From an uncultured Pantoea sp. (GTDB taxonomy: Bacteria; Pseudomonadota; Gammaproteobacteria; Enterobacterales; Enterobacteriaceae): 64,000 bases of DNA. How positions within the stretch are numbered: the first letter of the stretch is position 1; each line of letters starts with the position of its first letter. Shown in pieces: positions 11,500-35,936 of this stretch. The notes below the pieces were generated by a model. It made no database searches. It worked only from the letters and a program-made list of their open reading frames with translations, and had not been told where the DNA came from. The stretch is taken from positions 1-64,000 of the forward strand of contig CAJYKU010000021.1 in the NCBI GenBank assembly GCA_913775175.1, read 5' to 3'. The position numbers and the translations under genes are program-made.

Positions 11500-11501
11500 G
11501 T

Positions 11502-14631: not shown

Positions 14632-14644
14632 GCGCCCTGCGGTT

Positions 14645-14668: not shown

Positions 14669-14716
14669 GTAACTCAGGCTCTTTTCTCTGTCGGCAGCCG
14701 GGAGGATGAGCCTTAA

Positions 14717-15637
14717 TCAGCCCTTGTTCGCTGCCTGCACATGCAGCATATCCAGCGCCAGCGTTGCCGCTGCCAGAGAAGTCAGATCGGCATGGTCGTA
14801 ACCCGGTGCGACCTCAACCAGATCCATACCCACAATATTCATTCCCCGCAGGCCGCGAACCAGTTTAGTGGCTTTATCGCTACTCAGACCACCAATCACC
14901 GGCGTACCTGTGCCAGGCGCATGTGCCGGATCGAGACAGTCGATATCAAATGTCAGATAGACCGGCAGGTCGCCTACTGTGCGTTTTACTTCTGCCAGAA
15001 TATCATCCACGCTGCGATCGTTAACCTGTGCGGCATCCAGTACATTGAAGCCCAGGCTCTTATCATATTCGGTGCGAATACCAATCTGAACCGAGTGCTG
15101 TGGATCGATAAGTCCCTCTTTTGGCGCGGTAAAGAACATGGTTCCATGGTCAAACGTTGGCCCATTAGAGTAGGTATCGGTGTGCGCATCAAAATGCACC
15201 AGCGCCATTTTACCGAAGTGTTTAGCGTGCGCGCGCAGCAGCGGCAGCGTGATGTAGTGATCGCCACCAAAAGTCAGCATACGTTTGCCGTTTGCCAGAA
15301 GTTTTTCTGCATGCGCCTGCAGTTTGTCAGAAAGATCCTGTGAATCACCAAAGGCGTAAACCAGGTCACCACAGTCCACCACATTCAGACGCTGACGCAG
15401 ATCGAAATCCCACGGCCAGCGGCATCCTTCCCACGCCAGGTTGGTGGAGATCTGCCGAATCGCGCCTGGCCCCAGACGGCTGCCAGGGCGACCAGATGTC
15501 GCCGCATCAAAAGGTACACCGGTAATCACCCACTCTGCGTCACTCTCATAGGGCTGAAAATTAAGCGGGAAACGCATAAAACCGAAAGCGTTTGAAACCA
15601 GTGAGTTATCGTACTGATTACCCAGGGTGTTATACAT
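14717..15637 (-). CDS. speB: Agmatinase
   Basis: Hydrolyses agmatine to putrescine and urea, the step after SpeA. The 306-residue arginase-fold protein has E. coli length and all dimanganese motifs: [18 protein letters not shown] (about 150-160) and [16 protein letters not shown] (about 229-244). The start has a strong AGAGGACGCAAT ribosome site. In E. coli speB lies just downstream of speA. Here an 18-kb adhesin/secretion block separates them, and the terminator at 15690-15732 faces speB, so speB must rely on its own promoter in the short stretch 15638-15690. Confidence 0.97.
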
Positions 15638-15689
15638 ATTGCGTCCTCTTTAGATCAGGCAGCGCCTGCCTGTTAGCGGGTCAGGATAT

Positions 15690-15732
15690 AAAAAATCCCT
15701 TTCGCGTCGTTAGGCCCGACGAGAAAGGGATT
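15690..15732 (-). terminator. Terminator of the adhesin secretion operon
   Basis: On the minus strand a 10-bp stem AATCCCTTTC / GAAAGGGATT encloses a second 5-bp stem (CGTCG/CGACG) and ends in TTTTTTATA. It lies 49 bp after the end of the membrane-fusion gene and isolates speB from read-through. Confidence 0.85.
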
Positions 15733-15780
15733 AGTCGCAGTATTATCGCGGAGAATGTTCCCCCCTGCAATCATCTCTGC

Positions 15781-17007
15781 CTAGCGCTCGCGCATCGCCT
15801 CTTTGGCTTTGTTGAACGGTTTGATCAGGTAATCCATCACCGTTTTCTCGCCGGTTTTAATATCTACCGTGGAGACCATACCGGGAGAAATCGAAAAGCG
15901 TTTGCCCGCTTTATTCTGCACATAGTCGTTATCAGTGCGAATAAATACCCGGTAGTAGTAGATCTCCGGTTTAACTTCATCCTGAATGGTATCGGGTGAA
16001 ATCCCCTCCACCACACCATTGAGTCCGCCATAGATCGCGTAATCGTAAGCAGAGATTTTCACTACCGCGCGCTGACCAGGATGAATAAAGGCGATATCGC
16101 GCGGCGAGATACGGGCTTCCACCAGTAACTGATCGTTGAGCGGCACAATATTCATCAGCTCACCGTTAGGCGGGATCACTCCTCCTACCGTTGATACCTT
16201 GATATTTTTTACAATGCCGCGCATCGGTGCACGAATGGTCAGACGTGTTACCGTGTCTTCCCGCCCTTTGATGACCTCCGCCAGGCTATCGGCCTCTGCG
16301 CTCGCTTTTGCCAGCTCTTCACGCGCCTGCACATAGTACTGTGAACGCATATCGGTCAGCTTCAGCTCCAGATCCGATTTGTCACGCTGCAGACGCAGCA
16401 CCTCAACGCTACTGGCCGCACCACTTTTCGCCAGCCGCTGTGTGATGGCCAGCTCACGGTCGGCTAACGCCAGCGATGCGTTAAACTGCTTAGTGGCATC
16501 GTTGAGCTGTGCCCGTTTGGTGTTATAGAGCCGGGTTTCCGCCGCGATCAGATCGGGCCACGCCTTCAGCTCATCCGGAAAGGTGAGCTTTGTATCGTTA
16601 ACCTCTGCCCGCAGGCGTGATGCGGCCGCCAGTGCAGCACGATAGCGCGCGGCGCTCTCGCCGACACTTGACTGTGAGCGTGTGGGATCAAGGCGGGCAA
16701 CAATTTCGCCAGCCTGTACCTGATCGCCTTCATGCACATAGAGCTCCGTGAGAATTCCGCCCTCCAGCGACTGTAACACCTGCTCGCGCGAGCTGGGGAT
16801 CACTTTGCCGGTGCCGGTAGAGACCTCATCCAGCACGCCAAACCATGCCCAGACCAGCGCAGAGAGGATCAGCGCAGCACTGATGACAATCAGTCTGACT
16901 GCGCCGCTGTAGTGCGTCTCCGATTTCAGTTCACCCAGCAGATCGTCCTGAGCGTTTAGTTCAGCAGCGGTTACCAGCCGCAGTTTTGCCGGAAGCTGCT
17001 TGATCAT
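15781..17007 (-). CDS. Type I secretion membrane fusion protein (HlyD/LapC family)
   Basis: Periplasmic adaptor that links the inner-membrane ABC transporter to the TolC-like channel. The 408-residue product has a short cytoplasmic N-terminus, one transmembrane helix (about residues 37-58, RLIVISAALILSALVWAWFG), a lipoyl/barrel half with LYVHEGDQVQAGEIVARLDP, a long alpha-helical hairpin (about 120-270), the second lipoyl half IRAPMRGIVKN, and the beta-barrel with ISAYDYAIYGGLNG typical of HlyD-type adaptors. It overlaps the ABC gene by 4 nt (ATGA), so translation is coupled. Last gene of the adhesin operon; counterpart of Salmonella BapD by position. Confidence 0.92.
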   Translation of the reverse strand: MIKQLPAKLRLVTAAELNAQDDLLGELKSETHYSGAVRLIVISAALILSALVWAWFGVLDEVSTGTGKVIPSSREQVLQSLEGGILTELYVHEGDQVQAGEIVARLDPTRSQSSVGESAARYRAALAAASRLRAEVNDTKLTFPDELKAWPDLIAAETRLYNTKRAQLNDATKQFNASLALADRELAITQRLAKSGAASSVEVLRLQRDKSDLELKLTDMRSQYYVQAREELAKASAEADSLAEVIKGREDTVTRLTIRAPMRGIVKNIKVSTVGGVIPPNGELMNIVPLNDQLLVEARISPRDIAFIHPGQRAVVKISAYDYAIYGGLNGVVEGISPDTIQDEVKPEIYYYRVFIRTDNDYVQNKAGKRFSISPGMVSTVDIKTGEKTVMDYLIKPFNKAKEAMRER

Positions 17008-19187
17008 AGGTTGCCTCCTGGCAGAGTGGTGCTACTGCGAGCCGCTGGCAGCGCTTTCTCTTTCGGGCTATCCATTACCAGTTGCCCCTCTTTAAGAACC
17101 AGTATGCGATCAACCAGCGACAGGATCGCCGCACGATGCGTGGCCACAATCAGCGTGCGGCCATTAAGCCAGGCACCGAGTCGCTCGATAAAGTCTTTTT
17201 CAGTGTGATCATCCAGCGAGGCGGTGGGCTCATCCAGCAGCACAATGTTGGGATCGCGCAGCAGCATGCGCGCCAGCAGCAGCGACTGACGCTGACCGCC
17301 AGACAGACCCGTTCCGCCCTCCATTATCGGATGATCCAGACCCAGTGGCAGGCGGCGAATAAAGTCAGCACCGCCGCTGACCGTAAGCGCAGAGAAGATC
17401 GCATCATCAGTGGCGTGCGCGGCGCCCAGCGTCAGGTTTTCACGCAGCGTGCCGTGAAACAGTCGCGCATTCTGCGTCAGCAATCCGACATTGCGGCGCA
17501 CGTCAGCAACGTCAATATGCGGCAGGCTGAGGTTATCGAGCCGTAGCTCCCCGCCCATCAGATCCATGCCACCAGCCATTGCCTGCAGCAACGTTGATTT
17601 ACCTGAGCCGTTACGTCCCAGTACCGCAACGCGTTCGCCTGGTTTGATGGTCAGTGATTTGATGCGCAGTGCCACCGTCAGGGAGTCGCTATAGTAGCGG
17701 AACATCGCGTCAGTAAACTGATAGTGACCAAACAGCACCGGACAGTGAATACGCGTCTCATCTTTACTGTTCTCTACCGGCAGATTCATCAAGCCATCCA
17801 GACTACTTTTTGCTGCCTTGACCTGCTGCCAGCGCGCCAGAACACCACACAGCGTGGCCATGGGTGCAATCATGCGGGAAGAGAGCAGTGATGCCGCGAC
17901 AATCGCTCCCGTGGTGATATCACCATTGATTACCATAGGTGCACCCACCACAATGACGGTGGCATACACCAGCCCCTGGACAGTGACGCCCCAGCTGATC
18001 AGCGAGTGCATTACCTTGCGCATCGCTACGCCCGACTGTGCAGTGATGCGGATATAGCTGTTCCACTGCTGCAGAAAACGATCCTCTGCCTGCATCAGCT
18101 TGATATCCTCCAGCCCCTGTACGCTCTCAACTAACACCGCATTACGCAGTGTGGACTCTTTCAGCGCCTGCTGGGCCAGCTTTGCCAGCTTTTTCTGACT
18201 CAGAAGGCCTGGCAGCACCATAAGCAGCACGGCCACGGGCGCAATCCACGCCAGCTGCGGAGCGATAATCGCCATAACCAGCAGGAACAGCAGAAAAAAG
18301 GGCATATCCACAATCGCTGTTACAGTGGTTGAGGTCACCATTTCGCGAATCGCTTCCAGCTCACGCAGTTGCGAAATAAAGGTGCCGGTGGAGCGCGGTA
18401 CGACGCTATTGCGTAAGCGCAGCGCATGACCAAACACCCGGTCTGAAACGCGCATATCAGCGCGTTTGCCCAGCAGATCGGTAACGTGATCGCGGCCCAC
18501 GCGCAATATATAGGTGAAAATAACGGAAATGATCACCCCGGCGTAAAGCACATACAGGGTGGGATAAGATTGTGCCGGAATGACGCGATCGTAAACCTGC
18601 ATCGAGAACACGATCCCCACCAGCGCCAGCAGGTTGATCAGAAACGAGCCCAGCATCACATAGCTATAGGGACGCAGATCGTGCAGCACCAGACGGCGCA
18701 ACCAGTCAGGCCGCACGCTCTCCAGATAGCGATCGACCCGGCTATCTTTTGCTGCCGTAACCGGCCGCAGTGCCGCAATGACCCGGATCTCGGGCAGCAG
18801 CTCGCTGAGCTGCACCGGCGTGGGCTGCTCATCGCCTGAGAAATGGATACGAACGCTGTCATCACCATCAAAGGTGGTGATCACCCCGACTTTACCATCG
18901 CTGAGCTCTGCTGCCAGTGGCAGACGCCAGCGGGTGATCTCCGGGTTCTCATCGCTGAAAAGTTGCAGCGACAACCCCGCCTGGCGTGCCAGGTGACGCA
19001 GTGCTTTTTCACGCGTCTGATTGCCCTGCCACTCGGCCGCTGCCATGATCATACCTGGCGAACAGGGCAGCCGGTAGTGAGTCGCGATCTGAATAATGGC
19101 TGTGGCCCAGTCATTAACCGGCAGCGAATCGCCGCTGCTGCTCTCTGGCTGATTCTCCGGCGCGTCCGGAATCTGAAGTTGGGTCAT
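17004..19187 (-). CDS. Type I secretion ABC transporter (LapB family)
   Basis: Inner-membrane permease/ATPase that energises export of the giant adhesin. The 727 residues divide into an N-terminal C39-like domain (about 20-140), six transmembrane helices (about 165-440) and an ATPase domain. The C39-like part lacks the protease signature: the segment ATHYRLPCSPG is the LapB type with no catalytic Cys-Gly context, so it probably docks the substrate without cutting it. ATPase motifs: Walker A GRNGSGKS, signature LSGGQRQS, Walker B IVLLDEPTASLD, H-loop ATHR. It overlaps both neighbours by 4 nt. Family assignment is clear; the substrate is inferred from the adjacent adhesin gene. Confidence 0.94.
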   Translation of the reverse strand: MTQLQIPDAPENQPESSSGDSLPVNDWATAIIQIATHYRLPCSPGMIMAAAEWQGNQTREKALRHLARQAGLSLQLFSDENPEITRWRLPLAAELSDGKVGVITTFDGDDSVRIHFSGDEQPTPVQLSELLPEIRVIAALRPVTAAKDSRVDRYLESVRPDWLRRLVLHDLRPYSYVMLGSFLINLLALVGIVFSMQVYDRVIPAQSYPTLYVLYAGVIISVIFTYILRVGRDHVTDLLGKRADMRVSDRVFGHALRLRNSVVPRSTGTFISQLRELEAIREMVTSTTVTAIVDMPFFLLFLLVMAIIAPQLAWIAPVAVLLMVLPGLLSQKKLAKLAQQALKESTLRNAVLVESVQGLEDIKLMQAEDRFLQQWNSYIRITAQSGVAMRKVMHSLISWGVTVQGLVYATVIVVGAPMVINGDITTGAIVAASLLSSRMIAPMATLCGVLARWQQVKAAKSSLDGLMNLPVENSKDETRIHCPVLFGHYQFTDAMFRYYSDSLTVALRIKSLTIKPGERVAVLGRNGSGKSTLLQAMAGGMDLMGGELRLDNLSLPHIDVADVRRNVGLLTQNARLFHGTLRENLTLGAAHATDDAIFSALTVSGGADFIRRLPLGLDHPIMEGGTGLSGGQRQSLLLARMLLRDPNIVLLDEPTASLDDHTEKDFIERLGAWLNGRTLIVATHRAAILSLVDRILVLKEGQLVMDSPKEKALPAARSSTTLPGGNL

Positions 19188-20635
19188 GGCTGGATCTCCA
19201 CGCTCTGGATGCGCTGATTATTCAGGGTAAATGCTGTACGCATCTGCCCGGTACTGTAGAGGCAGTCAAGCTGCAGTGAGCGCAGCTGACTGATGGTTTG
19301 CTGCATCGTGAAGCGGGTCTGATAGACCTCCTGCTCCGCGTTAAGTACATCCAGCAGTGGCCGCGTGCCAAGCTGCAGATATTGATCCTGATAGAGCTCA
19401 CGCGTTTTCTCGCCCAGCGACTGCTGACGGCTCATAATGGCAAGGCTTTGCGACAGACTCAGCGCCTCATTTTGTGATTCGCTCAGCTGCTGACGCGCTT
19501 TGAGTCGCGCTGAGCCAATCGCGGCGTTAGCGGCCTGCAGCGCTCTGGCGGCTGCGTCGCGCGCGGCGGTAATGCTTCCGCCCTGATAGAGCGGCATCTC
19601 GACATTGACGAATGCGGAGTACTGCGTACGGTCCAGCGTCTCATTACCGGCATAGCGATTATTAAGATGATGGGTAACCTGCGGCTCCAGAGAGATGGTG
19701 GGATAGTTTTGTGCTGTCGCGTTATCAAGTTTGGCCTGTGCCTGATTCGCCTGCGCCCAGGCGGCCAGCACGGCCGGATTGGTTTTATCATCAGCTTTGC
19801 CGCTGCTGCAGGCGCGCGTCAGCGTGACGGGAAACTGATCGCTGACCTGCTTTACCTGCGGCCAGCCCAGATAGGTCGCCAGGGTGGCGCGCCAGCGATT
19901 CAGGCTCGCCTGATATTGTGTCAGCAGGGTACGCGCACCTTCAATACGTGCGTCAGTTTGCGTGGCGTCAGAGAGTGAGGCAGCGCCCTCTTCATTGCGC
20001 TGGCGCGCCAGCACGCCGATTCTGTCCAGTGCACCAAGCTGATCCTGGGCGATTTTCACCAGCTGCTGGTAGCCCTGTACCTGAACCAGCGCGGCCGCGG
20101 TATCGTGTGCCACGCTGTCAATGCTGACCAGTACGTTGGCCTGCTCACGGGCAACACCCGCCTCGGCAGAACGTACCGAACTGCTGACTTTGCCAAAGTC
20201 ATACAGCATCTGCGACACCGATAAAACAAATGAGGGGCTGAATCCGCTGCCCTCATAGTTGTTGCTATAGCCATTGTTCAGGCCTGCGCTGATTTGCGGG
20301 TAATATTTTGCTTTCGCTACATCGACCTGATTCGCCTGCTCCAGCATGGTACCGATAGCCTGAGCAATATCGGGATGATACTGCACGGCGCGCTGTACCG
20401 CCTGGTCAATCGTCAGCGTTTCCGGCACGCTGGCCAGGGCCGGCTCGGCGACCTGACCATTAAGCGATGGCAGCTCCTGCTGCTGAACCAGAGTACTTTG
20501 GGTAATGGATCCGGCCCGCATCAGCGTATCGCTGGCGGCACTAAGATGGGTACTGAAAAACATCAGAAGGCTCGCGCCGAAGGCGCTGAGCTGACAGGAG
20601 TGGCGAAGAGGTGCGCCGGTTTGTATCAGATCCAT
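19184..20635 (-). CDS. TolC-family outer membrane channel of the adhesin exporter
   Basis: Outer-membrane factor that forms the exit duct of the type I system. The 483-residue product has a signal-like hydrophobic stretch (about residues 18-33, AFGASLLMFFSTHLSA) and then two OEP repeats. The first has TIDQAVQRAVQYHPDIAQA and SQMLYDFGKV, the second VNVEMPLYQGGSITAARDAA and GTRPLLDVLNAEQEVYQTR. These tandem motifs are diagnostic of the AggA/TolC type used by LapA/BapA systems. It starts 72 bp after the adhesin gene, with a small hairpin between, and ends with a 4-nt overlap onto the ABC gene. Not the housekeeping tolC. Confidence 0.93.
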   Translation of the reverse strand: MDLIQTGAPLRHSCQLSAFGASLLMFFSTHLSAASDTLMRAGSITQSTLVQQQELPSLNGQVAEPALASVPETLTIDQAVQRAVQYHPDIAQAIGTMLEQANQVDVAKAKYYPQISAGLNNGYSNNYEGSGFSPSFVLSVSQMLYDFGKVSSSVRSAEAGVAREQANVLVSIDSVAHDTAAALVQVQGYQQLVKIAQDQLGALDRIGVLARQRNEEGAASLSDATQTDARIEGARTLLTQYQASLNRWRATLATYLGWPQVKQVSDQFPVTLTRACSSGKADDKTNPAVLAAWAQANQAQAKLDNATAQNYPTISLEPQVTHHLNNRYAGNETLDRTQYSAFVNVEMPLYQGGSITAARDAAARALQAANAAIGSARLKARQQLSESQNEALSLSQSLAIMSRQQSLGEKTRELYQDQYLQLGTRPLLDVLNAEQEVYQTRFTMQQTISQLRSLQLDCLYSTGQMRTAFTLNNQRIQSVEIQP

Positions 20636-20657
20636 CGATTATCCACCAGTCAGAATA

Positions 20658-20680
20658 GAGAAAGGGCACTTCCTGTGCCC
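20658..20680 (-). terminator. Weak attenuator-like hairpin between adhesin and exporter genes
   Basis: On the minus strand GGGCAC-AGGAA-GTGCCC is followed by TTTCTCT. The short U-poor tail suggests partial termination, which would give more adhesin than exporter mRNA. This is an inference from position. Confidence 0.45.
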
Positions 20681-20707
20681 GTTACGCTTCCCTGCCTTAT
20701 AAAACCA

Positions 20708-23700
20708 TTATGCCGTGTGGTTTTGGTGCGGTTGCTGCAGCAGCTCCTCCAGAGAGACGTTGACGCCTTCCAGCGTAATCAACTGTGTCGCGCTGTAGCC
20801 CGTACCACTGCCATCACGATCGATTGAGAGCACGGTATTGCCATCAGAAGTATGGTCCACTTTCACAAAATCATTAATATTACTCGTGGAATCATTCCAG
20901 CCGATAAGCAACTCACTGATGTCGATCCTGTCACCCTGGTCCACATTGAAATCGGTCCAGGTATCCTGACCATTGCCACCAGTTGCATCCGCGCTATCCA
21001 GTAAATGGTATACCAGCGTATCTGCTCCGGCGCCACCGGTAATGGTGTCGTCGTAAGCACTGCCGGCTAGCGTGTCTGCACCGCTGGTGCCAGTGATAAC
21101 AGGGTTTAGCTCAATAGTGAAGCTGTGAGTTGAAATAGTGCCGTCCGTACCCAGCAGCGTGTAACTGAACACCTCTTTATGCGTGATATCCTGTGGATTG
21201 ACATCTGCATTCAGTGAGTAGGTATAGTCGCCGCTGGCGCTAACCTGCAGTACCCCAAACTCGCCGGCAATCGACGTAGTTCCCTGCGTATCAACCGTGG
21301 TTTCGCCTCCCAGAGCATTAATAATGATTAAGGTTCCGCTGTGCGCAGTTGTTGCGTCAGCCCAGATACTGCCTGCAGCATCATGCTCACTGCTGGTGTC
21401 AGCCAGCAGGCTGGCAAACGTTGTACTGTTGACTGTTGCGGCATTTACATCACTTAGCGTGACCTGCAATGTGGCAGAAGTCACCACGCCACTGGTATCA
21501 CGTACTGAATAACTGAAAGTATCAGCAGCAGGCAGCGTATCAATATCCAGACCCGCTTTTAGCGCATAGCTATAATTACCGCGCGCATCAACCGTCAGCG
21601 TACCGTAGCTGGTATTGATCACCGTATTACCAACGCTGGCCACGGTAGCCCCTGATACAGTGGTCACTGCCACACCAGCCGGCACCGTGCCCGCAACCGA
21701 GCTGGTGTCGTTTGCCAGCAGATTGCCCGTCACGGTTGCCGCAATGGTTACCGCCAGCGTGGTGAAGTCGGAGACCGTGCTCACCGTGGTGCTGGGCAAC
21801 AGATTGATGTTTGTGGAAGGTGTCAGGATCACCGCATAGTTGCCGGTGCCCAGATTGTTGTAGGTGACATTGGCGCCACGAATAGTGCCAATAGAAATCA
21901 GCGCATTGATGTAGTTACTCTGTGAACTTACCAGCGTCCATGAGCCATTACTCTGCTGTTCATACAGATTCAGCGAATAGGTAGAGAGTGCGCCCAGCAG
22001 AGTGGTTACAGAGCCATTCAGGGTAACCGAACGTGAATCATCCGGGCCAACGCTGAAGGTGTAAGCATTGCCGCTGTTCAGCAAGCTGGCATCCAGCACA
22101 TTACCCAGGCCCAGCGTTACCAGCGCTGTATGTGTTGAGCTGACAGTGCCGTTATTAACTGTGACCACGCGGGTGTCATACTCAAGTTCGCGGGTATCAT
22201 CAGTTGCCACTATGCGAATAGCACCCAGCAGCGATGCCGATGGCGAGACATTGCCGGCACGGTCGGTCTGCGTAACCGACAGTGTGGCGCCGGTGGTTTG
22301 AGCCGCGTTAAGCGTGACTGACCAGCTGCCATCATTGCCCACGGTGGCAGTTCCCAGAGCTGTGCCACCCGCACTCCGCACCGTAACCGTTGCCCCTACC
22401 TCACCACTGCCGGTGACGCTGGTACCTGCCGTATTGATCAGCAGCCCTGTAACAGCAGCTGGCGGCACGGTATCAATATTCAGCGTGGTGGCCACATTGC
22501 CGGTACTGACGTTGCCCGCCCCATCGGTCACGGTGGTGCTCAGCGTATGTGCACCGTTACTCAGCGCACCCGTGGTGTAGCTCCAGGTTCCATCTGCTCC
22601 CACGGTAACGGAACCCAGCGCATTAGCGCCATCAAAGATGGTTACTATGGCTCCCACCTCTGCCGTACCGTTCAGCGTTGGTGTGGTATCACGCGTGTAA
22701 GCACCATTGAGCAGCGTAACTGGTGTAGCGCCCACATCATCAATAATGGTGAGCGTACTGGCCGCTGGCGCAACAGTATCAACACGCAGCGTCAGGGATG
22801 CCTGCGGACTAATATTGCCTGCCGCATCAGTCTGCGTAACATTGAGCGTATGCAGACCCTCACCCAGCACCGGAGTAACAAAGTTCCAGTTGCCATTTGC
22901 ACCCACGGTAGCGGTACCAATTTGTGTCAGACCGTCATAGATAGTGACGCGCGCGCCTGCTTCACCTGAGCCGCTTAACAGCGGTGTGTTATCCCTGGTT
23001 AAGCCATTCTCCGGTATGACAATATTGGTGGCACCGTTGTTATTCGCCGCTGTCAGCCCTGTTACAGCCGCTGGTGGCAGGCTATCGATAATCAGCGTGG
23101 TGCTGGTAACACCACTGATATTACCCGCCACATCAGTAGCGGTGACACTCAGGGTATGCAATCCCTGACCCAGTTCGCTGCTGGTGTAGCTCCAGCGGCC
23201 ATCTGCGGCTGCGGTGACAGAGCCCAGTACCAGCGTACCATCGCGAACGGTAACAATGCTGTTGCCTTCTGCCACACCACTTAACGTTGGCGTGGTATCG
23301 CGGCTGTAGCCACCAGCAGGGATCACGGTTCCGGTGATATCATTAGTGACCACCAGTGTGGAAAGCGCTGGTGCTGTGGTATCCACCACTACCGTAAAGT
23401 TAACCGGTGCGCTGCTGCTACCTGCCGCATCACGCACAGTGACGCTCAGTGGATGGCTGCCTTCACTCAGGGTCGCAGTGGTGAAACTCCATGCGCCTGA
23501 GCCATCCGCGACCACAGAACCCAGTAGCGTATTGCCCTCGCTGATCACTACCACACTGTTTGCGGTTGCGGTACCAGAGAGCGTTGGCGTGGTGTCATCA
23601 GTTGGCCTGCCGCTAACCAGCGGCCCCTGAATAGTTCCCACATTATCGCTGACTATCAGATCAGTTACCGGTGCCACCAGCCCGGTCAGTACGGTGAAGC

Positions 23701-26700: not shown

Positions 26701-29700
26701 TAACCGGCGTATCGTTGTTATCATTGCTCAATGTCACGTCAGTGGCAGCTGGCGGAGCAACGGTGTCCACCGTAAAGCTAATCGGCGTACTCGGATCGCT
26801 GATATTGCCAGCAGAATCGGTCACTGTGACGCTCAGGTTATGCAGACCATCGTTCAGCAGCGGAGAGAAACTCCAGTTGCCTTCACCATCGGAGGTGGTT
26901 GTACCGATTATCTGCTCGCCATCATAAAGGGTGATAACACTATTGGCTTCCGCAGTACCACTAAACAGCGGCGTATTATCTGAAGTGGTGCTATCCGGAT
27001 CGATAGCCACATCTGCCGGGCCGTTGTCATTAAACAATGCGGCATCAACAACCGCATCGGGTACAACGGTGTCTATAGTAAAGATCACGGCTGCTGAGCT
27101 GTCACTGCTATTACCCGCAGCATCAGTCACAATGGTGGTCAGCGTGTAGGTGGCATCATCCAGCGGGGTCGCTGGCGTAAAGCTCCAGGTGTTATCACTG
27201 TTCACCGTCACGGTTCCCAGCAATTCATCACCGTTATAGATGCTTACCGTGCTACCCGACTCAGCCTCTCCGCTTAATACCGGTGTGGTATCGTTGGTGA
27301 AACCGTTCTGAGCAACGATCGTATTGTTTATATCGTTTCTCAGCTGCAGATTAACAGCTGCATCTGGTTCAATTGTATCAATGGTGATAACCAGTGGTTC
27401 AGATGGTGCACTACTGTTGCCAGCCGGCGAAGTCAGCACTGCGCTCAGAGTATGATCGCCATCACCCAGCGCTGGTGTGTTAAAGCTCCAGTTGCCCTCA
27501 CCATTTACGGCTACCGAGCCCAGTACGTTGTCACCATCATAAATGGTTACCACGCCATTTGGTGTACCACTACCGCTGAGCAGTGGTGTGGTGTCATTGG
27601 TGAAACCGTTGGTGATAACGATAGCAGTCCCGCTCTCATCATTACTGACCTGCAGATCGGCTGGTGCTGCTGGCGTGGATGTATCAAGCGTGAAAGTAAC
27701 TGGCTCGCTGGCGGGTCCACTATTACCTGCTGCATCAGTAACAACAGTGGTCAGGCTATGAGCGCCAGGTTCCAGCATCGGTGAGGTAAAGCTCCAGCTG
27801 CCATCTTCATCCACGGCGACGCTGCCCAGAAGTGTTTCGCCATCTGATACAGTCACGATGCTGCCAGGCTCGGCCTGACCGCTAAGTACCGGCATAGTGC
27901 TATTTGTAATCCCGCCGGGCGCAATTTCAGCCCCGTCAGGTTCTCTGGTCAGCACCAGATTAGTGGCAGCCTCAGGATCGGTAATATCTACAGTGAATGT
28001 CACCGCATCAGACTGTGGTCCGATATTACCTGCCGCGTCGGTCACAGTGGTGATAAGGCTGTGCTCGCCTTCGCCCAGTTCCGGCGTGGTAAAGCTCCAG
28101 GCACCCGACTCATCAGCGGTGGTGCTGCCCAGCACATTTTCGCCATCATAGATGGTGACAATGCCGCCCGGCTCAGCGGTGCCGCTCAGCAGCGGTGTGG
28201 TGTCATTGGTAAAGCCGTTGGTAATTGTCAGCGGTGCCTCGCCATCGTCGTCGCTGAGTACCAGATTAGCGGCTGCCAGCGGTGCGCTGGTATCCACGGT
28301 AAAGGTCACCGGCTCAGACTGCGGTCCGGTATTGCCCGCCGCGTCGGTCACGGTGGTGATAAGGCTGTGCTCGCCCTCGCCCAGTTCCGGCGTGGTAAAG
28401 CTCCAGGCACCCGACTCATCAGCGGTGATGCTGCCCAGCACATTTTCGCCATCGTAAACAGTCACGATGCCGCCCGGCTCGGTTGTGCCGCTCAGTACCG
28501 GCGTGGCGTCACCGCTGAAACCGTTGGTGATCGCCACCGGCGTGCCGCTGCGGTCGTCGCTCAGCAGCAGATCGGCCGCCACTGCCGGTGCAGTGGTATC
28601 CACGGTGAACGTGAAAGGCTCAGACTGCGGTCCGGTGTTGCCCGCCGCATCGGTCACGGTAGTGGTCAGGCTGTAGCTGCCCTCGTCCAGTTCCGGCGTG
28701 GTAAAGCTCCAGGTACCCGACTCATCAGCGGTGGTGCTGCCCAGCACATTTTCGCCATCATAGATGGTGACAATGCCGCCCGGCTCAGTTGTGCCGCTCA
28801 GCACCGGTGTGGTGTCACTGGTAAAGCCGTTGGTGACTGCTACCGGCGTGCCGCTCTGATCGTCGCTCAGCGCCAGATCAGCGATCGCCTCCGGTGCCAG
28901 AGTATCCACGGTGAACGTGACAGGCTCAGACTGCGGTCCGGTATTGCCCGCCGCGTCGGTCACGGTGGTGATAAGGCTGTGCTCGCCCTCGCCCAGTACA
29001 GGCGTGGTAAAGCTCCAGGCACCCGACTCATCAGCGGCGATGCTGCCCAGCACGGTTTCGCCATCGTAGATGGTGACTATGCCGCCCGGCTCAGCTGTGC
29101 CGCTCAGTACCGGCGTGGCGTCGCCGCTGAAACCGTTGGTGATCGCCACCGGCGTGCCGCTGCGGTCGTCGCTCAGCAGCAGATCGGCCGCCACTGCCGG
29201 CGCGGTGGTATCCACGGTGAACGTGAGAGGCTCAGACTGCGGCCCGGTATTGCCCGTCGCGTCGGTCACGGTGGTGATAAGGCTGTGCTCGCCCTCGCCC
29301 AGTTCCGGCGTGGTAAAGCTCCAGGCACCCGACTCATCAGCGGCGATGCTGCCCAGCACATTTTCGCCATCGTAGATGGTGACAATGCCGCCCGGCTCGG
29401 TCGTGCCGCTCAGCACCGGTGTGGTGTCACTGGTAAAGCCGTTAGTGACTGCTACCGGCGTGCCGCTCTGATCGTCGCTCAGCACCAGATCAACGATCGC
29501 CTCCGGTGCCAGAGTATCCACGGTGAACGTGACAGGCTCAGACTGCGGTCCGGTATTGCCCGCCGCGTCAGTCACGGTGGTGATAAGGCTGTGCTCGCCC
29601 TCGCCCAGTACAGGCGTGGTAAAGCTCCAGGCACCCGACTCATCAGCGGCGATGCTGCCCAGCACGGTTTCGCCATCATAGATGGTGACAATGCCGCCCG

Positions 29701-32068
29701 GCTCGGTCGTGCCGCTCAGTACCGGCGTGGCGTCGCCGCTGAAACCGTTGGTGATCGCCACCGGCGTGCCGCTACGGTCGTCGCTCAGCAGCAGATCGGC
29801 AGCCACTGCCGGCGCGGTAGTATCCACGGTAAAGGTCACAGGCTCAGACTGCGGCCCGGTATTGCCCGCCGCGTCGGTCACGGTGGTGGTAAGGCTGTGC
29901 TCGCCCTCGCCCAGCTCCGGCGTATTAAAGCTCCAGGCTCCGGCGTCGTCTGCAGTGGTGCTGCCCAGTACGGTCTCGCCGTCGTAGATGGTGACAATGC
30001 CGCCCGGCTCAGTTGTGCCGCTCAGCAGCGGCGTGGTGTCATTGGTAAAGCCGTTGGTGACTGCTACCGGCGTGCCATTTTGATCGTTGCTCAGCACCAG
30101 ATCGGTAGCCGCGTCTGGCGCAGTGGTATCGACCACGAAGGTGATCGGTGTGGATTGCGGTCCGGTGTTGCCAGCGGCATCAGTTACGGTAGTCGTCAGA
30201 CTATGGCTGCCCTCGCCCAGCTCTGGCGTATTAAAACTCCAGTTACCGGTGTCGTCTGCAGTGGTGCTGCCCAGCACAGTCTCACCATCATAAATGGTGA
30301 CAATACCGCCTGGCTCAGCGGTGCCGCTCAGCAGTGGCGTGGTGTCGCTGGTATTTCCGTTAGTAACGGCAACCGGCGTCCCGCCCTGATCGTCGCTCAG
30401 TACCAGGTCGCCAGCCACTGGCGGAGCCACGGTATCAATCGTGATTGTCAGAGTAATTGATTCAGATGTATTGCCCGCTGCATCAGTGGTAATGGCGCGA
30501 AACGCATAGCTGCCATCGGCCAGCTCAGCTGGCGTAAAGCTCCACTGTCCACTGGCATCTGCCAGCGTGCTGCCCAGTACCACATCACCGTTATACAGCG
30601 TTACCAGCTGATTAGCGCCAGTCAGGCCGATGAGCGTTGGCGTCATATCCGGCGTGCTGTCACCGTCAGACAATGTCCGCACTGCACTGCCGCTGTCATC
30701 AATAATTTCCAGAGAGGTGGTGGCAGGAGGAATACCCGCACCCACGTTGATCACAAAGTCGCTGGTCGCCGGGCTGATATTTCCTGCTGCATCGGTAACC
30801 GTGACGCTCAGCGTATGAGTGCCGTTAGTCAGCTCTGGTGTGGTAAAGCTCCAGTTTCCGTCGCTACCAACTGCCGCGCTGCCGAGCAGCACAGAACCGT
30901 CATAAATCTGAACAACGGCGCCTGCCTCAGCGGTACCACTCAGAACGGGAGTATTGTCATCGGTAGTTTGCCCGTTAAGCAGCGGCCCCTGGATTTCACC
31001 GACGTTATCGGTAACGACCAGATTGTCTGCTGCTGCCGGGGGAGTGGTATCAATAGTGAATTCAAAAGGAAGGGTGGAGGTACTGGTATTGCCTGCGGCA
31101 TCAGTGACTGTAACGCTCAGGCTGTGCTGACCTTCGCCCAGCTCCGGAGTACTGAAACTCCAGCGTCCGTCGCCATCTGCTACTACACTGCCCAGCAAGG
31201 TGTCACCATCATAAACGGTGACTACTGCCCCTGCTTCAGCAGAGCCGCTGATCACCGGACGGGTATCATCAGTTACGCCACCTGCGGTAATCGGGCCCTG
31301 ATACTGACCAGCATTATCGGTGACAGTTATCTCACTGGCTGGCTCCGGTGCTGTGGTATCTTCGCCGCCACTGCCGCCGCCGCCGCCGCCGTTATCGCCA
31401 CCGCCATTATCACCGCCGCCGGTGTTGCCACCGTTATCGCCGCCACCGGTGTTGCCGCCATTATCGCCGCCGCCGGTGTTGCCACCGTTATCACCGCCGC
31501 CGGTGTTGCCGCCATTATCACCGCCGCCGGTGTTGCCACCGTTATCACCGCCGCCGGTGTTGCCGCCGTTATCGCCGCCGCCGGTGTTGCCGCCGTTATC
31601 GCCGCCGCCGCCGGTGTTATTGCCGTTGTTGTTGTTGTTGTTGTTATTGTCATCATCACCACCATTAGTGGCAATCAGAGCTGCAATACCGGCAAGGGCA
31701 GCGCCTCCGATACCAACGGCAGCGATGGTGTTATTATCCGTTGCGTTTTCCGCCAGTAAGCCATCCATACTGTCAATCTGTACGTACTGGAAACCATCTG
31801 TGCCGGGATCCTCAACCCACCATAACGCCCCGCGGTCGTCCTGTAACACCAGGTCACTGTCACCGTTCGCACTATAAAAACCATGGATAACAAGAACTTC
31901 TCCTGATTTTGTAGTAACAACCAGATCATTACCATTGCGTGTGAAATTCTTAATGTCAGCCTTGTTCAGGTTCAGTTTGACGACACTGGGTGCTGTCAAC
32001 GTAACCTGATCACCGCTCACGTTTGAAGCAATTGTCCCACCTTTGGGGGTGATAGAGATATTGTTCAT
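20708..32068 (-). CDS. bapA: Giant BapA-like type I secreted adhesin
   Basis: Biofilm adhesin expected at the cell surface. From the ATG at 32068 it has 3,786 residues. Order: BapA-prefix domain (1-110, with TAPSVVKL and RGALWWVEDP); hydrophobic stretch (about 115-133, AAVGIGGAALAGIAALIA); Asn/Gly/Asp-rich linker (to about 235); about 30 Ig-like repeats of about 100 residues with endings such as TVTDAAGNTG; then VCBS-like segments; and a C-terminal secretion region with TGGAGADTLVYH and NVDQGDRIDISELL. A TTG at 32155 would add 29 residues and has GGGAG at 8 nt, but sits in a hairpin. I prefer the ATG because the remembered Salmonella BapA N-terminus lines up there, although its ribosome site is poor. 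The exporter genes follow on the same strand. Salmonella BapA has a similar length and gene order. Confidence 0.9.
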   Translation of the reverse strand: MNNISITPKGGTIASNVSGDQVTLTAPSVVKLNLNKADIKNFTRNGNDLVVTTKSGEVLVIHGFYSANGDSDLVLQDDRGALWWVEDPGTDGFQYVQIDSMDGLLAENATDNNTIAAVGIGGAALAGIAALIATNGGDDDNNNNNNNNGNNTGGGGDNGGNTGGGDNGGNTGGGDNGGNTGGGDNGGNTGGGDNGGNTGGGDNGGNTGGGDNGGNTGGGDNGGGDNGGGGGGSGGEDTTAPEPASEITVTDNAGQYQGPITAGGVTDDTRPVISGSAEAGAVVTVYDGDTLLGSVVADGDGRWSFSTPELGEGQHSLSVTVTDAAGNTSTSTLPFEFTIDTTPPAAADNLVVTDNVGEIQGPLLNGQTTDDNTPVLSGTAEAGAVVQIYDGSVLLGSAAVGSDGNWSFTTPELTNGTHTLSVTVTDAAGNISPATSDFVINVGAGIPPATTSLEIIDDSGSAVRTLSDGDSTPDMTPTLIGLTGANQLVTLYNGDVVLGSTLADASGQWSFTPAELADGSYAFRAITTDAAGNTSESITLTITIDTVAPPVAGDLVLSDDQGGTPVAVTNGNTSDTTPLLSGTAEPGGIVTIYDGETVLGSTTADDTGNWSFNTPELGEGSHSLTTTVTDAAGNTGPQSTPITFVVDTTAPDAATDLVLSNDQNGTPVAVTNGFTNDTTPLLSGTTEPGGIVTIYDGETVLGSTTADDAGAWSFNTPELGEGEHSLTTTVTDAAGNTGPQSEPVTFTVDTTAPAVAADLLLSDDRSGTPVAITNGFSGDATPVLSGTTEPGGIVTIYDGETVLGSIAADESGAWSFTTPVLGEGEHSLITTVTDAAGNTGPQSEPVTFTVDTLAPEAIVDLVLSDDQSGTPVAVTNGFTSDTTPVLSGTTEPGGIVTIYDGENVLGSIAADESGAWSFTTPELGEGEHSLITTVTDATGNTGPQSEPLTFTVDTTAPAVAADLLLSDDRSGTPVAITNGFSGDATPVLSGTAEPGGIVTIYDGETVLGSIAADESGAWSFTTPVLGEGEHSLITTVTDAAGNTGPQSEPVTFTVDTLAPEAIADLALSDDQSGTPVAVTNGFTSDTTPVLSGTTEPGGIVTIYDGENVLGSTTADESGTWSFTTPELDEGSYSLTTTVTDAAGNTGPQSEPFTFTVDTTAPAVAADLLLSDDRSGTPVAITNGFSGDATPVLSGTTEPGGIVTVYDGENVLGSITADESGAWSFTTPELGEGEHSLITTVTDAAGNTGPQSEPVTFTVDTSAPLAAANLVLSDDDGEAPLTITNGFTNDTTPLLSGTAEPGGIVTIYDGENVLGSTTADESGAWSFTTPELGEGEHSLITTVTDAAGNIGPQSDAVTFTVDITDPEAATNLVLTREPDGAEIAPGGITNSTMPVLSGQAEPGSIVTVSDGETLLGSVAVDEDGSWSFTSPMLEPGAHSLTTVVTDAAGNSGPASEPVTFTLDTSTPAAPADLQVSNDESGTAIVITNGFTNDTTPLLSGSGTPNGVVTIYDGDNVLGSVAVNGEGNWSFNTPALGDGDHTLSAVLTSPAGNSSAPSEPLVITIDTIEPDAAVNLQLRNDINNTIVAQNGFTNDTTPVLSGEAESGSTVSIYNGDELLGTVTVNSDNTWSFTPATPLDDATYTLTTIVTDAAGNSSDSSAAVIFTIDTVVPDAVVDAALFNDNGPADVAIDPDSTTSDNTPLFSGTAEANSVITLYDGEQIIGTTTSDGEGNWSFSPLLNDGLHNLSVTVTDSAGNISDPSTPISFTVDTVAPPAATDVTLSNDNNDTPVIVPNGGFTNDNTPLFRGSAEAGSTITITTQDGTLVGSAVVNDDGSWSLSPATALEDDSYTFSIVTSDAAGNLSAPVTLSATIDTDPPAIAVGITLTNNDGALPVIIANGSFTNDNTPFISGTAEANSVVTILNGDAVLASVTANASGQWSYQLPLLEDAVYNLTTTVTDIAGNTSDPSAVITFTVDTQLPVPATLVVSNDNGETPIVIPAGGLTSDNTPLLEGTAEANSLVIIYDGDVVLGSTTATAGGTWSFSSPALNDGPHVLSATVTDEVGNVSTPSVSFTVEVDATAPQPIGNLLLQNNDGDDLITIISNSFTSDNTPQISGTAEGNAVIRVFDGDILVGSTTASADGDWSLTTDTLTNGLHALTVTATDAAGNVSAPVTSISFNVDNTTPDPVLTFNIYSNAGTTPLLIANGGFTNDSTPVLRGTGVAGTVVNIIQDDTVIGSTAVGDNGVWRFETSVLTDDLYSFSVSVTNAAGTTGSVTGPLTVNIDTAAPATIGDLTVTDNVGDVTGALTSGAITDDTTPAFSGTAEAGGVVSIYSGNQLLGTATATDGSWSFTPAAPLNNGTYSFTFTVTDAAGNVSPLNASPAFELTVQAALPAVTSTLQITDDSGNTLLDVTNGDIIRDTTPVLQGLASPNGLVTIFDNDLAIGSVTADGEGQWSFTPEPVLDQGPHAIYVTSVDSTGNEQDPSATISFTVDSIAPEIVTDLTAANNNGAELVTIVAGGITNDSTPQLSGTAEANGLVTIYDGNNVIASVTADGAGAWSTALPLLSQGGHAISVTVTDAAGNVSDRSAALNFTVDTVAPAASSLVVSANDTAVLSGAFINDNTPTLTGTAEANATVTIYDGTVPLGSVVADGLGLWSFTTDALAEGSHALNVRVTDTAGNTGIASATTTVVIDTVAPVIGNLLLLNNNGSTPVTIAAGSATSDNTPLLSGTAEAGSIVTVRDGTTVLGSVTANGTGVWSFTSPVLADGLHTLTVTAVDAAGNASAPSSIGFTVLTGLVAPVTDLIVSDNVGTIQGPLVSGRPTDDTTPTLSGTATANSVVVISEGNTLLGSVVADGSGAWSFTTATLSEGSHPLSVTVRDAAGSSSAPVNFTVVVDTTAPALSTLVVTNDITGTVIPAGGYSRDTTPTLSGVAEGNSIVTVRDGTLVLGSVTAAADGRWSYTSSELGQGLHTLSVTATDVAGNISGVTSTTLIIDSLPPAAVTGLTAANNNGATNIVIPENGLTRDNTPLLSGSGEAGARVTIYDGLTQIGTATVGANGNWNFVTPVLGEGLHTLNVTQTDAAGNISPQASLTLRVDTVAPAASTLTIIDDVGATPVTLLNGAYTRDTTPTLNGTAEVGAIVTIFDGANALGSVTVGADGTWSYTTGALSNGAHTLSTTVTDGAGNVSTGNVATTLNIDTVPPAAVTGLLINTAGTSVTGSGEVGATVTVRSAGGTALGTATVGNDGSWSVTLNAAQTTGATLSVTQTDRAGNVSPSASLLGAIRIVATDDTRELEYDTRVVTVNNGTVSSTHTALVTLGLGNVLDASLLNSGNAYTFSVGPDDSRSVTLNGSVTTLLGALSTYSLNLYEQQSNGSWTLVSSQSNYINALISIGTIRGANVTYNNLGTGNYAVILTPSTNINLLPSTTVSTVSDFTTLAVTIAATVTGNLLANDTSSVAGTVPAGVAVTTVSGATVASVGNTVINTSYGTLTVDARGNYSYALKAGLDIDTLPAADTFSYSVRDTSGVVTSATLQVTLSDVNAATVNSTTFASLLADTSSEHDAAGSIWADATTAHSGTLIIINALGGETTVDTQGTTSIAGEFGVLQVSASGDYTYSLNADVNPQDITHKEVFSYTLLGTDGTISTHSFTIELNPVITGTSGADTLAGSAYDDTITGGAGADTLVYHLLDSADATGGNGQDTWTDFNVDQGDRIDISELLIGWNDSTSNINDFVKVDHTSDGNTVLSIDRDGSGTGYSATQLITLEGVNVSLEELLQQPHQNHTA
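22215..31360 (-). repeat. Array of about 30 Ig-like coding repeats in bapA
   Basis: I count 29 full units and one short unit, each about 290-310 bp. Every unit opens with a D-T-x-x-P turn and has a TPxLSG core, an IYDG strand and an AGN-containing end. Units near the middle (about 27,985-30,435) have an exact 306-bp period and are nearly identical. Units nearer either end have diverged to 85-105 residues. Such arrays are common in large adhesins and change length by recombination. Confidence 0.92.
28548..29990 (-). repeat. 612-bp higher-order repeat inside bapA
   Basis: Two versions of the 306-bp Ig unit alternate. Version A encodes LLLSDDRSGTPVAITNGFSG and version B encodes LSDDQSGTPVAVTNGFTS. 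The A landmark (plus-strand CTGCGGTCGTCG, or CTACGG in the third copy) occurs at 28548, 29160 and 29772, exactly 612 bp apart. The pattern shows duplication of an A-B pair after the two versions had already diverged. Confidence 0.85.
31384..31619 (-). repeat. 27-bp tandem repeat encoding a Gly/Asp/Asn linker
   Basis: About eight copies of a 27-bp unit encoding GGGDNGGNT. On the amino-terminal side a run of eight Asn codons (mostly AAC) and an Asp run adjoin it. The unit length is a multiple of three, so slippage would change linker length without a frameshift. It joins the N-terminal prefix to the Ig array. Confidence 0.9.
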
Positions 32069-32142
32069 GTTATCGGGATCCCGCGCAGATAAATGTTTAT
32101 AAGCGTTGATACGCCCGGTATCACCAGATACCGTTCGATTTA

Positions 32143-32168
32143 GGGAGTAATTCAAGATAATTACTCCC
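32143..32168. promoter_or_regulatory. Perfect inverted repeat at the 5' end of bapA
   Basis: GGGAGTAATT and AATTACTCCC form a perfect 10-bp inverted repeat with a 6-base centre (CAAGAT on the plus strand). As mRNA it would fold so that the GGGAG ribosome-like site is in the stem and a TTG codon is in the loop. It lies about 75 nt upstream of the ATG at 32068. No U run follows, so it is not a terminator. It may be a DNA operator or an RNA element. Confidence 0.55.
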
Positions 32169-32367
32169 GTCCTCCATTGACCGCCTCACAATCAGAATGT
32201 GAAACAGGCAGTGAACAGGCTTCATTGCGGATTCGGACAGGCTGCAGACGCTATGGTGGGTAGAAAAAACAATCTTCAGGCAAAGCAGTTTTTAACCGCA
32301 TCTTATTAATTTTTTTGCCTAAAAATTATTTTCTATGCAAAACATAATCGCTGAGCTGTGTATCGAA

Positions 32368-33057
32368 TTACGCAAGTAAGTCGTTAAGATAAACACTCTG
32401 CCAGTGATAGCCTTGCATACCGTGAATGGGTTTATGTGCAAGCAAATCAACATATTGCTGATTTTCCACTCCCTCAACAATCACGCCGCGACATAATTGA
32501 TTGAGATGGTTAAGCAGAATGTCAAATGTGCGATCTCTGGCAAACTGCCAGAAAAACGCCTTATCAATTTTGACGACTTCAAATATTCCGCTATCAAGCA
32601 TGGTCAGGCTGGAATAACCCGAACCAAAGTTGTCAATCCAGAGAGGTGCAGACGTCACTTTCGCAATGCCTTTCAGAGTCAGCAGATCTTCACTATTAAA
32701 CCGTGAAGTAAAAAATGCAGAAGTTTCCATTCTTAACAGGGGTAACGAAGATAATTTCTCCTGAATTTCAGTATCTTCAAAAATGCCTGCCACAATATCT
32801 CTGTCTACATTTATGCTGATTGTCTGATTAAATCCTCTCTGATTTAGCTGAATAATCTTTTCTACCTGGTGGAGAAACAGCTGCCATTTTTCGGTGGCAG
32901 AAAGCAGAGAAGCCGCACTTTTAACTCTGCTGGAATGTTGTTGCTTATAAGACGTTGTATTGCCCGGAAAACGTGTAAGTAACTCCCAGGCAATTACTTC
33001 ATTTTTCAGATTGCAAACCGGCTCCAGTATAAAAGCCGGTTTAATGCGCTGTATCAT
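32368..33057 (-). CDS. EAL-domain protein, YdiV-like, with altered catalytic motifs
   Basis: A stand-alone EAL fold of 229 residues, close in length and layout to E. coli YdiV, which binds FlhD and represses flagella without cutting c-di-GMP. EAL-type landmarks are partly kept: WELLTRF for EALxR, an Asn in SINVDRD, VKIDKAFF, IVEGVEN and GMQGY. Others are lost: the ExTE motif reads LRMETSAF (first Glu is Arg) and DDFG reads DNFG. ATEKWQLFLHQ resembles YdiV EEQHWQLFSEQ. These changes suggest weak or no phosphodiesterase activity. The ATG at 33057 with AGGA at 9 nt is preferred over a TTG at 33093. The gene looks richer in A+T than its neighbours. It lies 299 bp before bapA on the same strand; a link to adhesin control is inferred. 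Confidence 0.85.
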   Translation of the reverse strand: MIQRIKPAFILEPVCNLKNEVIAWELLTRFPGNTTSYKQQHSSRVKSAASLLSATEKWQLFLHQVEKIIQLNQRGFNQTISINVDRDIVAGIFEDTEIQEKLSSLPLLRMETSAFFTSRFNSEDLLTLKGIAKVTSAPLWIDNFGSGYSSLTMLDSGIFEVVKIDKAFFWQFARDRTFDILLNHLNQLCRGVIVEGVENQQYVDLLAHKPIHGMQGYHWQSVYLNDLLA

Positions 33058-33679
33058 CGCCTGAGTTCCTGAACCTATCGATGCTTTCTGCAATGATCAG
33101 ATTTACTCATATGAACGCAGGTGGATACATCGATAAAATTTACTATAACAAAACATTAGCACTCTGCAATTTACATTTTGAAAAAAGTTCTCAAGCAGCG
33201 GATGGTGCTAAAAGTGCAGAATAAATACCATGTTTGTTTCTGGATATTTCAAAAAAGCGTGAAAAGAACAGCCTTAACTAAAGCTAAAAAACCCAGTCAA
33301 CGCGCTACTCCTGCACAAAAAAATCAAATAAAATCATAAATAAACTGGTTTATTTGGCATAATTTGCACAATACATCCGTTACTCGCTCTCATTCCCCGA
33401 ACCATTTCCCTAACCATTTTCTGGAAAATTTTTCTGGAAATGCACTCTGCCTGCTGTCGCAGGCAGCACAATGCTAACCTTATGAATCTTCAGCAAAACA
33501 CAAGTAGAACTCATGTTAAGCATAAACATAACTACTATATTTAGCAGTGTTTTGAGCAGGGGATGACAGGCAGGGGTAAAATTGCATCTATTTCTTAAGT
33601 CAAATCAGGATGATAAGCAAAAGTGGGAAATATAATTCCCTAAAAACGGCAGATGCAAAATATTGGGGTATGTCACAAA
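33058..33679. other. AT-rich intergenic region between the EAL gene and speA
   Basis: About 620 bp, visibly richer in A+T than the flanks, with runs such as AAAAAATCAAATAAAATC. No coding frame of interest and no RNA gene I recognise. It marks the speA-side edge of the accessory block and should hold the EAL gene promoter. I see no direct repeats, integrase or tRNA end here. Confidence 0.5.
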
Positions 33680-33711
33680 AATAAAAAATAAAAAAAGGCC
33701 CCGCAGGGCCC
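33677..33711 (-). terminator. Terminator of speA
   Basis: On the minus strand GGCCC-TGCG-GGGCC runs into TTTTTTTATTTTTTATTTTT, 22 bp after the speA stop. It blocks transcription from speA into the accessory block. Confidence 0.88.
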
Positions 33712-35709: not shown

Positions 35710-35936
35710 CGCGAACCTCAATTTTCTGTTGAAATAGTAGAGAGTTATCAGATACTGCTGGTGCGTATTTGGCCAAAATTTTGTTCATACTGCGTATCCT
35801 GCCTCTTCAGGTTTCCCCGGGTGTTGCTATCAGTAAGTGTAAAACATCGTGCTGCAATACGTGATAATCAGGCCAGATGTGTCTGGATTCCGGATGTAAA
35901 TCATCAGTGCAGCGCAATAGCTAACGCAGGATTAGT

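Follow-up and report, generated by a model that had tools for sequence, protein, structure and literature searches.

The bapABCD operon of Salmonella encodes the BapA adhesin together with its own type I exporter, and in the LapA/LapBCE systems a giant adhesin is likewise accompanied by an ABC exporter of the LssB/LapB type. Here we describe a unit of this kind in a stretch of 64,000 nucleotides (hereafter the window) from an uncultured Pantoea sp., where five main genes, all on the minus strand, separate speA (biosynthetic arginine decarboxylase) from speB (agmatinase). The window genome (G000) is a Pantoea-group assembly of 2.43 Mb in 45 contigs with 74.65% completeness, and the closest named relatives of its speB are those of Pantoea (98% identity). 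From speA to speB, the interval holds genes for an EAL-domain protein, a BapA-like adhesin, a TolC-like outer-membrane protein, a LapB/LssB-like permease/ATPase and an HlyD-like adaptor. As in Salmonella bapABCD, an adhesin with the BapA prefix, Ig-like repeats and a type I secretion signal is followed, in this order, by TolC-, LapB- and HlyD-like genes. A bapABCD-type unit in another genus of the family (G216) has exporter genes 62–70% identical to those of the window and occupies a different chromosomal site, beside an open reading frame (ORF) taken by eye for smpB; an EAL gene lies upstream of the adhesin in the window, whereas none was found near the G216 unit (tblastn, 1e-5). The locus also differs from adhesins under LapD-LapG control, as no LapG-type protease (Peptidase_C93) was found in 61 genomes of the genus, the incomplete window genome included, in a search for which 1 of 14 controls (Caulobacter) was positive. 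The arrangement is real, derived and widespread in the genus; its components are of known kinds, and its interest lies in their placement, the EAL companion and a conserved leader of speB.

Spacing of speA and speB in the family and the genus

To place the window among its relatives, we used a family sample of 198 genomes, with speB in 111 and speA in 131, and surveyed the gap in 129 of the latter, leaving out the fragmentary G179 and G181. Both genes share a contig in 106 genomes, the window among them, and the gap there has a median of 211.5 bp; it is at most 500 bp in 79 genomes and exceeds 1 kb in 21 and 3 kb in 7. The window gap measures 18,098 bp between the matched ends. Since the typical family gap is about 210 bp, the split of speA and speB is derived. 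This agrees with the original prediction, which regarded the two genes as neighbours in most relatives, and the interval comparison that it proposed found neither an ancestral split nor a derived E. coli order. Among the matches listed for the family sample, HlyD lies within the speA-speB interval in the window only. Eleven larger family gaps that were read contain other ORFs (two cases being common to two genomes), and none of the 11 matched the cassette queries; one E. coli record that was read has an ORF of 243 aa between the two genes. Adjacency is the common state, and the speA-speB interval is a recurrent insertion spot.

Within the genus (in the GTDB sense, one member being Mixta mediterraneensis), 58 of the 61 genomes were examined, G374, G386 and G388 being without usable speA or speB. 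The cassette occupies the speA-speB site in 33 of the 58. Three of these carriers (G371, G381 and G383) have a contig break inside the cassette; the beginning of the adhesin is then next to speA, and the exporter genes are on the contig that has speB. In G375, one carrier beyond the 33, the EAL gene and the beginning of the adhesin adjoin speA where the contig ends; this genome was scored as lacking the cassette in the capsule survey below and is absent from the trees. The gap is 161–177 bp in 19 genomes of the 58 and 776 bp in G370, the speA match is interrupted in G389, and three genomes carry kps capsule genes in place of the cassette. Named carriers include Pantoea piersonii, P. latae and Pantoea sp. 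RIT-PI-b, and named empty sites include those of P. agglomerans and P. brenneri. The carriers agree in gene order, in orientation and in where the cassette sits, after the speA stop codon and before the promoter-like site of speB. An arrival peculiar to the window genome does not hold, because so many genomes of the genus carry the cassette here and the cassette tree largely follows that of the flanks.

Origin and descent of the cassette

We consider it probable that a cassette of adhesin, exporter and EAL genes entered a single time, in an ancestor within the Pantoea group, at a site that tolerates inserts, and was then inherited vertically. The entering unit would have comprised a BapA-type adhesin with the type I exporter dedicated to it, joined in most lineages by the small EAL protein; the insertion point would be the short stretch from the speA stop codon to the speB promoter, and the cassette would afterwards have been passed on mainly with its flanks. 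The tolerance of the site may be understood because speB has a promoter-like site and a leader of its own downstream of the insertion point, elements that are seen in the sequence and whose function is presumed.

On a flank tree of metK, speA and speB (65 rows, 57 from the genus and 8 outgroups), the cassette label changes twice, a number as low as which was reached by none of 500 shuffles. Thirty-two carriers form one clade in this tree, and G371 stands beside a cassette-free clade of 22 genomes; the careful tree gives this position a support of 73/97. Among the genus rows of the exporter-gene tree, G371 is the first to branch off, the two outgroups there having long branches. Cassette and flank distances are correlated (r = 0.876; 0/2000 permutations as high). 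These patterns would fit a single origin of the cassette and mostly vertical descent with its flanks.

Several observations weigh against so simple a history. The flank and cassette trees share 18 of 30 splits and two conflicts are strongly supported, which points to some recombination or exchange. A constraint placing all carriers in one clade is not rejected (p-AU 0.154), so that one gain with one loss and a single later gain both fit, and the cassette-free clade may have lost the cassette or never had it. The adhesin frame is in pieces in G356, G380 and G404, a search at E 1e-8 found no EAL gene in 3 of the 34 carriers (G371, G392 and G396), and the window genome is 74.65% complete. A CRP-like site (TGTGA-N6-TCACA, at most 1 mismatch) follows speA in 21 of 34 carriers, where shuffles expect 0.5 (these being related sequences and not independent), and 19 of the 21 sites lie 75–116 nt after the speA stop; in the window the best such site, with 3 mismatches, does not exceed chance (38/40 shuffles), so CRP control is not claimed for the window.

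The main alternative, that two or more similar cassettes were inserted independently at a hotspot, appears unlikely. Gaps above 1 kb in 21 of the 106 family genomes, the absence of cassette matches from all 11 such intervals read, the 8 changes that kps presence needs on the flank tree as against 2 for the cassette, and the position of G371 apart from the other 32 carriers in that tree would all accord with repeated insertion, yet the carriers are alike in gene order, orientation and placement, G371 lies outside the other carriers in the cassette tree and is not nested among them, and a single carrier clade is not rejected. That the arrangement is a chimeric-contig artefact of a metagenome bin can be dismissed almost entirely, since the window does come from an incomplete assembly of 45 contigs but the same arrangement is found in contigs of the isolates P. 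piersonii, P. latae and Pantoea sp. RIT-PI-b.

As to the route by which a single entry may have occurred, the original prediction had seen no integrase, tRNA end or direct repeats, and none was found here: the 64-kb window has no tRNA; in 30 carriers, no direct repeat common to the speA end and the HlyD end exceeds in length the longest one seen in 30 mononucleotide shuffles; and there is no integrase among the five main ORFs of the window interval, the small ORFs not having been scanned. The EAL stretch is AT-rich (GC 0.398–0.418 in two 1-kb steps at 32–34 kb), and the exporter genes have a GC of 0.573 versus 0.518 for speA. A recent arrival deduced from this base composition is rejected, as the AT-rich EAL stretch and the GC-richer exporter recur in 30/30 carriers. 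A plasmid origin was also rejected: of 72,556 plasmid records, 187 were matched by HlyD in tblastn, none with at least 80% identity (best row 71.3%), and hence that collection holds no plasmid copy close to the cassette.

In another genus, G266 bears HlyD and LapB homologs of 87% identity and a TolC homolog of 76% identity, which nest among the Pantoea rows in the exporter-gene tree and suggest a transfer out of Pantoea. Its Pantoea-like bapA-exporter cassette (G266:C1:3085000-3117000; L188 and L189) is located at another site, has no EAL match and has its adhesin in two reading frames.

Adhesin and exporter

The gene identities and coordinates first assigned to the cassette and its flanks were right, as judged by family matches and ORF coordinates (Table 1).

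Table 1. Features of the speA-speB interval in the window, listed from speA to speB
Feature	Position	Strand	Support
speA, biosynthetic arginine decarboxylase, left flank	33733..35721	-	TIGR01273 897 bits, NF003763 913 bits
Intrinsic-terminator-like hairpin directly 3' of speA	33696..33711	-	consensus match
Stand-alone EAL-domain protein	32368..33057 from ATG, 229 aa; to 33093 from TTG, 241 aa	-	Pfam EAL 7e-14
BapA-like giant adhesin ORF, 3815 codons from TTG	20708..32155	-	NCBIfam and Pfam domain matches
Terminator-like hairpin in the gap between adhesin and TolC-like gene	20664..20680	-	consensus match only (region: 18 found vs shuffle mean 14.6)
TolC-like outer-membrane protein	19184..20635	-	TIGR01844 286 bits, above cut-off
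LapB/LssB-type type I secretion permease/ATPase	17004..19187	-	TIGR03375 761 bits, above cut-off
HlyD-type type I secretion adaptor	15781..17007	-	TIGR01843 328 bits, above cut-off
speB promoter-like site TTGCAG-17-GATAAT, just within the right-hand edge of the insert	15742..15770	-	similar site at empty and occupied loci, by eye
speB leader hairpin and T-run (model R1)	15686..15741	-	fold, stem-pair and model searches
speB, agmatinase, right flank	14717..15637	-	TIGR01230 333 bits, NF002564 492 bits

The adhesin has a BapA N-terminal prefix domain at residues 30–144 (PF22783, 1.7e-35; NF033677, 66.6 bits, cut-off 35), followed by 30 Big_13 (Ig-like) stretches and a VCBS repeat in Pfam, and a C-terminal type I secretion signal (TIGR03661, 64.8 bits, cut-off 17.6). 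Its match to the BapA/Bap/LapF C-terminal domain NF045619 is partial, at 140.8 bits below the cut-off of 180. The real start of the adhesin probably lies downstream of the TTG. In a length survey of the 30 carriers (of 33) that have no contig end inside the cassette, the 26 other unbroken copies range from 4625 to 6009 codons, which makes the window adhesin, at 3815 codons, the shortest unbroken copy seen.

The ABC exporter, HlyD adaptor and TolC-like pore, which together define a type I secretion system of the LapB/LssB kind, all score above curated cut-offs. With the BapA prefix domain and the secretion signal of the adhesin above theirs, this bears out the earlier assignment of the unit as a BapA adhesin with type I secretion in bapABCD gene order. 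The LapB/LssB-like gene overlaps both of its neighbours, the TolC-like and the HlyD-like gene, by 4 bases, and from these overlaps the exporter genes resemble a putative translationally coupled operon. In 8 close pairs, the dN/dS is at most 0.04 for HlyD, 0.06 for LapB and 0.10 for TolC, indicating purifying selection. By family analogy, the C-terminal signal would direct the adhesin to export by the LapB/LssB ATPase, the HlyD adaptor and the TolC-like pore, and the repeated Ig-like domains may tether cells to surfaces or to each other. In many carriers, hairpins of varying sequence are seen after speA (by eye, uncounted).

The EAL protein

Upstream of the adhesin, the EAL gene is present in 31 of the 34 carriers (G375 included), the copy in G380 being truncated, and a relative with 36% identity precedes a bapA-exporter unit at a different site in another genus (G270). 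The EAL gene evolves faster than the exporter genes and is mostly constrained (dN/dS 0.06–0.53 in 10 pairs). We scored eleven positions, which we take to have catalytic roles. The E, R, N, E, D and K positions are invariant in 31/31 members and Q is kept in all 30 that reach that position; ten of the eleven positions are intact in 20/31. The fourth position of ELTE is Glu in none of the 31 members (A in the window), DDFG lacks its second Asp in 5 of 31, among them the window (N) and its two nearest relatives, and of the Glu residues of EGVE the first is Gln in 5 members and the second is changed in 3. The window protein is thereby without the full catalytic residue set at DDFG and ELTE. The c-di-GMP (cyclic dimeric GMP) phosphodiesterase model PRK11596 of NCBIfam matches 25/25 members, the window protein with 70.8 bits versus a cut-off of 190. 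An ordinary c-di-GMP phosphodiesterase would be in keeping with this family match and with the 20 members that retain ten positions, and is at variance with the ELTE site that is never Glu, the losses at DDFG and at both Glu residues of EGVE, and the window score below the cut-off; we regard this role as rather doubtful.

The best PDB sequence matches of the EAL profile are STM1697 (7e-23) and YdiV/CdgR (3e-15), likewise stand-alone single EAL domains of about 230–240 aa. STM1697 and YdiV proteins are reported to bind FlhD and neither to bind nor to cut c-di-GMP (PMC10100727; PMC3510510). Of the FlhD-contacting YdiV residues named in PMC3510510, aligned by eye with the window protein, Phe168 is Phe, Glu179 is replaced by Asp, other residues stand at Phe155, His175, Phe181 and Arg183, and Ala184 is opposite a gap. 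Fifty-eight of the 61 genus genomes have FlhD; it was not found in the window genome, which is 74.65% complete. The cassette EAL protein thus differs from STM1697/YdiV in keeping more catalytic positions, in adjoining an adhesin operon and in matching the FlhD contacts only in part. An FlhDC antagonist of the STM1697/YdiV kind, keeping flagella off while the adhesin is made, would agree with these best matches, with the reported FlhD binding of both and with the wide occurrence of FlhD in the genus; such a role is possible and somewhat improbable, in view of the FlhD contacts that differ, the ten catalytic positions kept by 20 of 31 members unlike in YdiV, the phosphodiesterase family matching all 25 members (the window below its cut-off), and an incomplete window genome in which FlhD was not found. 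As judged from the residues, a binding or regulatory role is favoured in the window lineage, and an active enzyme is possible elsewhere in the genus. The EAL protein would most likely link adhesin production to the motility or c-di-GMP state, acting in the window lineage as a binder and not as a strong phosphodiesterase. An adhesin-linked EAL protein that drifts from catalysis offers a lead for further work.

The speB promoter-like site and leader hairpin

At empty sites, the speA stop codon is followed by a short stretch, a site similar to TTGCAG-17-GATAAT (by eye, uncounted), a hairpin with a T-run and then speB. At occupied sites, the promoter-like site and hairpin stand in the same order directly before speB, behind the cassette. 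Because the hairpin is also found at empty sites, the strong terminator facing speB, which the original prediction took to close the cassette, belongs to speB and not to the cassette end; it is a conserved speB leader that extends outside the genus. The hairpin pattern occurs in 56 of the 57 genus genomes with speB (the exception being G367, in which this stretch is altered) and in 54 of 80 named loci, including those of Escherichia, Salmonella, Klebsiella, Enterobacter, Serratia and Hafnia; among the same 80 loci it was not matched at, for example, those of Proteus, Providencia, Morganella, Xenorhabdus and Photorhabdus. A model built from the window, named and genus hairpin copies (R1) gives a sense-strand match 23–164 bp upstream of speB in 77 of the 111 family genomes with speB; the counts leave out weaker echoes of these palindromes on the antisense strand. 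Ten further R1 matches (E 7e-7 to 1e-3) are elsewhere or in genomes without a speB match. In E. coli the leader stretch was matched in 5375 of 5426 genomes, in 3510 of them over 80% of the 201-base query.

The stem has 98.7% of its cells paired and a covariation of 0.114 versus 0.068 when shuffled, both values being reached by 0/500 shuffles. Three stem pairs change on both sides, a count reached by 32/500 shuffles, and many loop and stem letters are nearly fixed. The window hairpin has a fold z of -4.56, and the longer leader of -2.38. Rfam 15 gave no match at E up to 1 in window positions 12000–37000, and on 241-base stretches of Salmonella and E. coli it gave only unrelated families far below gathering scores, which were treated as chance; no RNA gene is annotated at the speB leader in the one E. 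coli record read. A conserved enteric hairpin at speB that Rfam 15 does not recognise is a second lead. A literature search, with subscription journals mostly outside it, recognised no paper on a cassette at speA-speB or on the speB leader. The speB promoter is said to have been treated in papers of the 1990s. The accessible portion of PMC11968103 holds nothing on speA-speB spacing.

The hairpin would fall within the first tens of bases of a transcript from the promoter-like site, where it could possibly serve as an attenuator, a small RNA or an insulator. More broadly, we tentatively suggest, as a possibility short of an expectation, that many enteric genera have an undescribed terminator-first speB leader RNA, in which speB's own promoter would run into the near-invariant hairpin and U-run to yield a short RNA or an attenuator setting agmatinase output, and that the short spacer after speA, with this self-contained start directly behind it, would thereby have become a safe landing site which the Pantoea group made into a surface island of adhesin, EAL and capsule genes. 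The earlier claim that the cassette uncouples the two agmatine-pathway genes holds for their distance; a change in regulation is not supported, speB keeping its conserved promoter-like site and leader. The locus is an example of a close gene pair that was split with the downstream gene retained, and for which a likely reason is visible in the promoter-like site and leader of that gene.

Two genomes in which speB was not found also have leader-like hairpins next to speA (G223:C59:4381-4430, E 2e-6; G341:C19:51652-51703, E 7e-7). A palindromic repeat (core CACTTAC..AAGTAAG..CATCGGG) lies between the leader hairpin and speB in G362, G363, G372, G373 and G380, and in L003 upstream of 10001; with this repeat, the T-run ends 163–173 nt before speB.

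Capsule genes and other cargo

We scored kps presence as at least two of KpsM, KpsT, KpsC and KpsD, naming the genes by eye from sequence and order. By this definition, kps genes are in 15 of the 58 genus intervals, namely in 12 of the 33 carriers (G354, G362, G363, G367, G368, G371, G380, G381, G382, G391, G399 and G402) and in 3 cassette-free genomes (G365, G369 and G398), and none are in the window. Pfam supports six of seven scanned kps proteins, as export, cytidylyltransferase, capsule synthesis or ABC transporter proteins, and gave no match at 1e-5 for the KpsE candidate. There are two kps arrangements, that of G354, G362 and G382 being unlike the rest, and the two resemble the gene sets that PMC7305143 gives for group 2 and group 3. 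Capsule loci and other cargo lie in the same interval in relatives of the window genome, and one locus may be regarded as an island of surface genes, adhesin and capsule, in the Pantoea group.

The G371:C34 interval (L130 and L131) has an extra ORF of 2857 codons after the exporter genes (joined coordinates 7992-16565). A different type I secretion HlyD (~53–62% identity) is found a few kb off, on the metK side of speA, in Morganella psychrotolerans (L028 2971-5943, with LapB) and in five sampled genomes (G167, G171, G180, G201 and G312).

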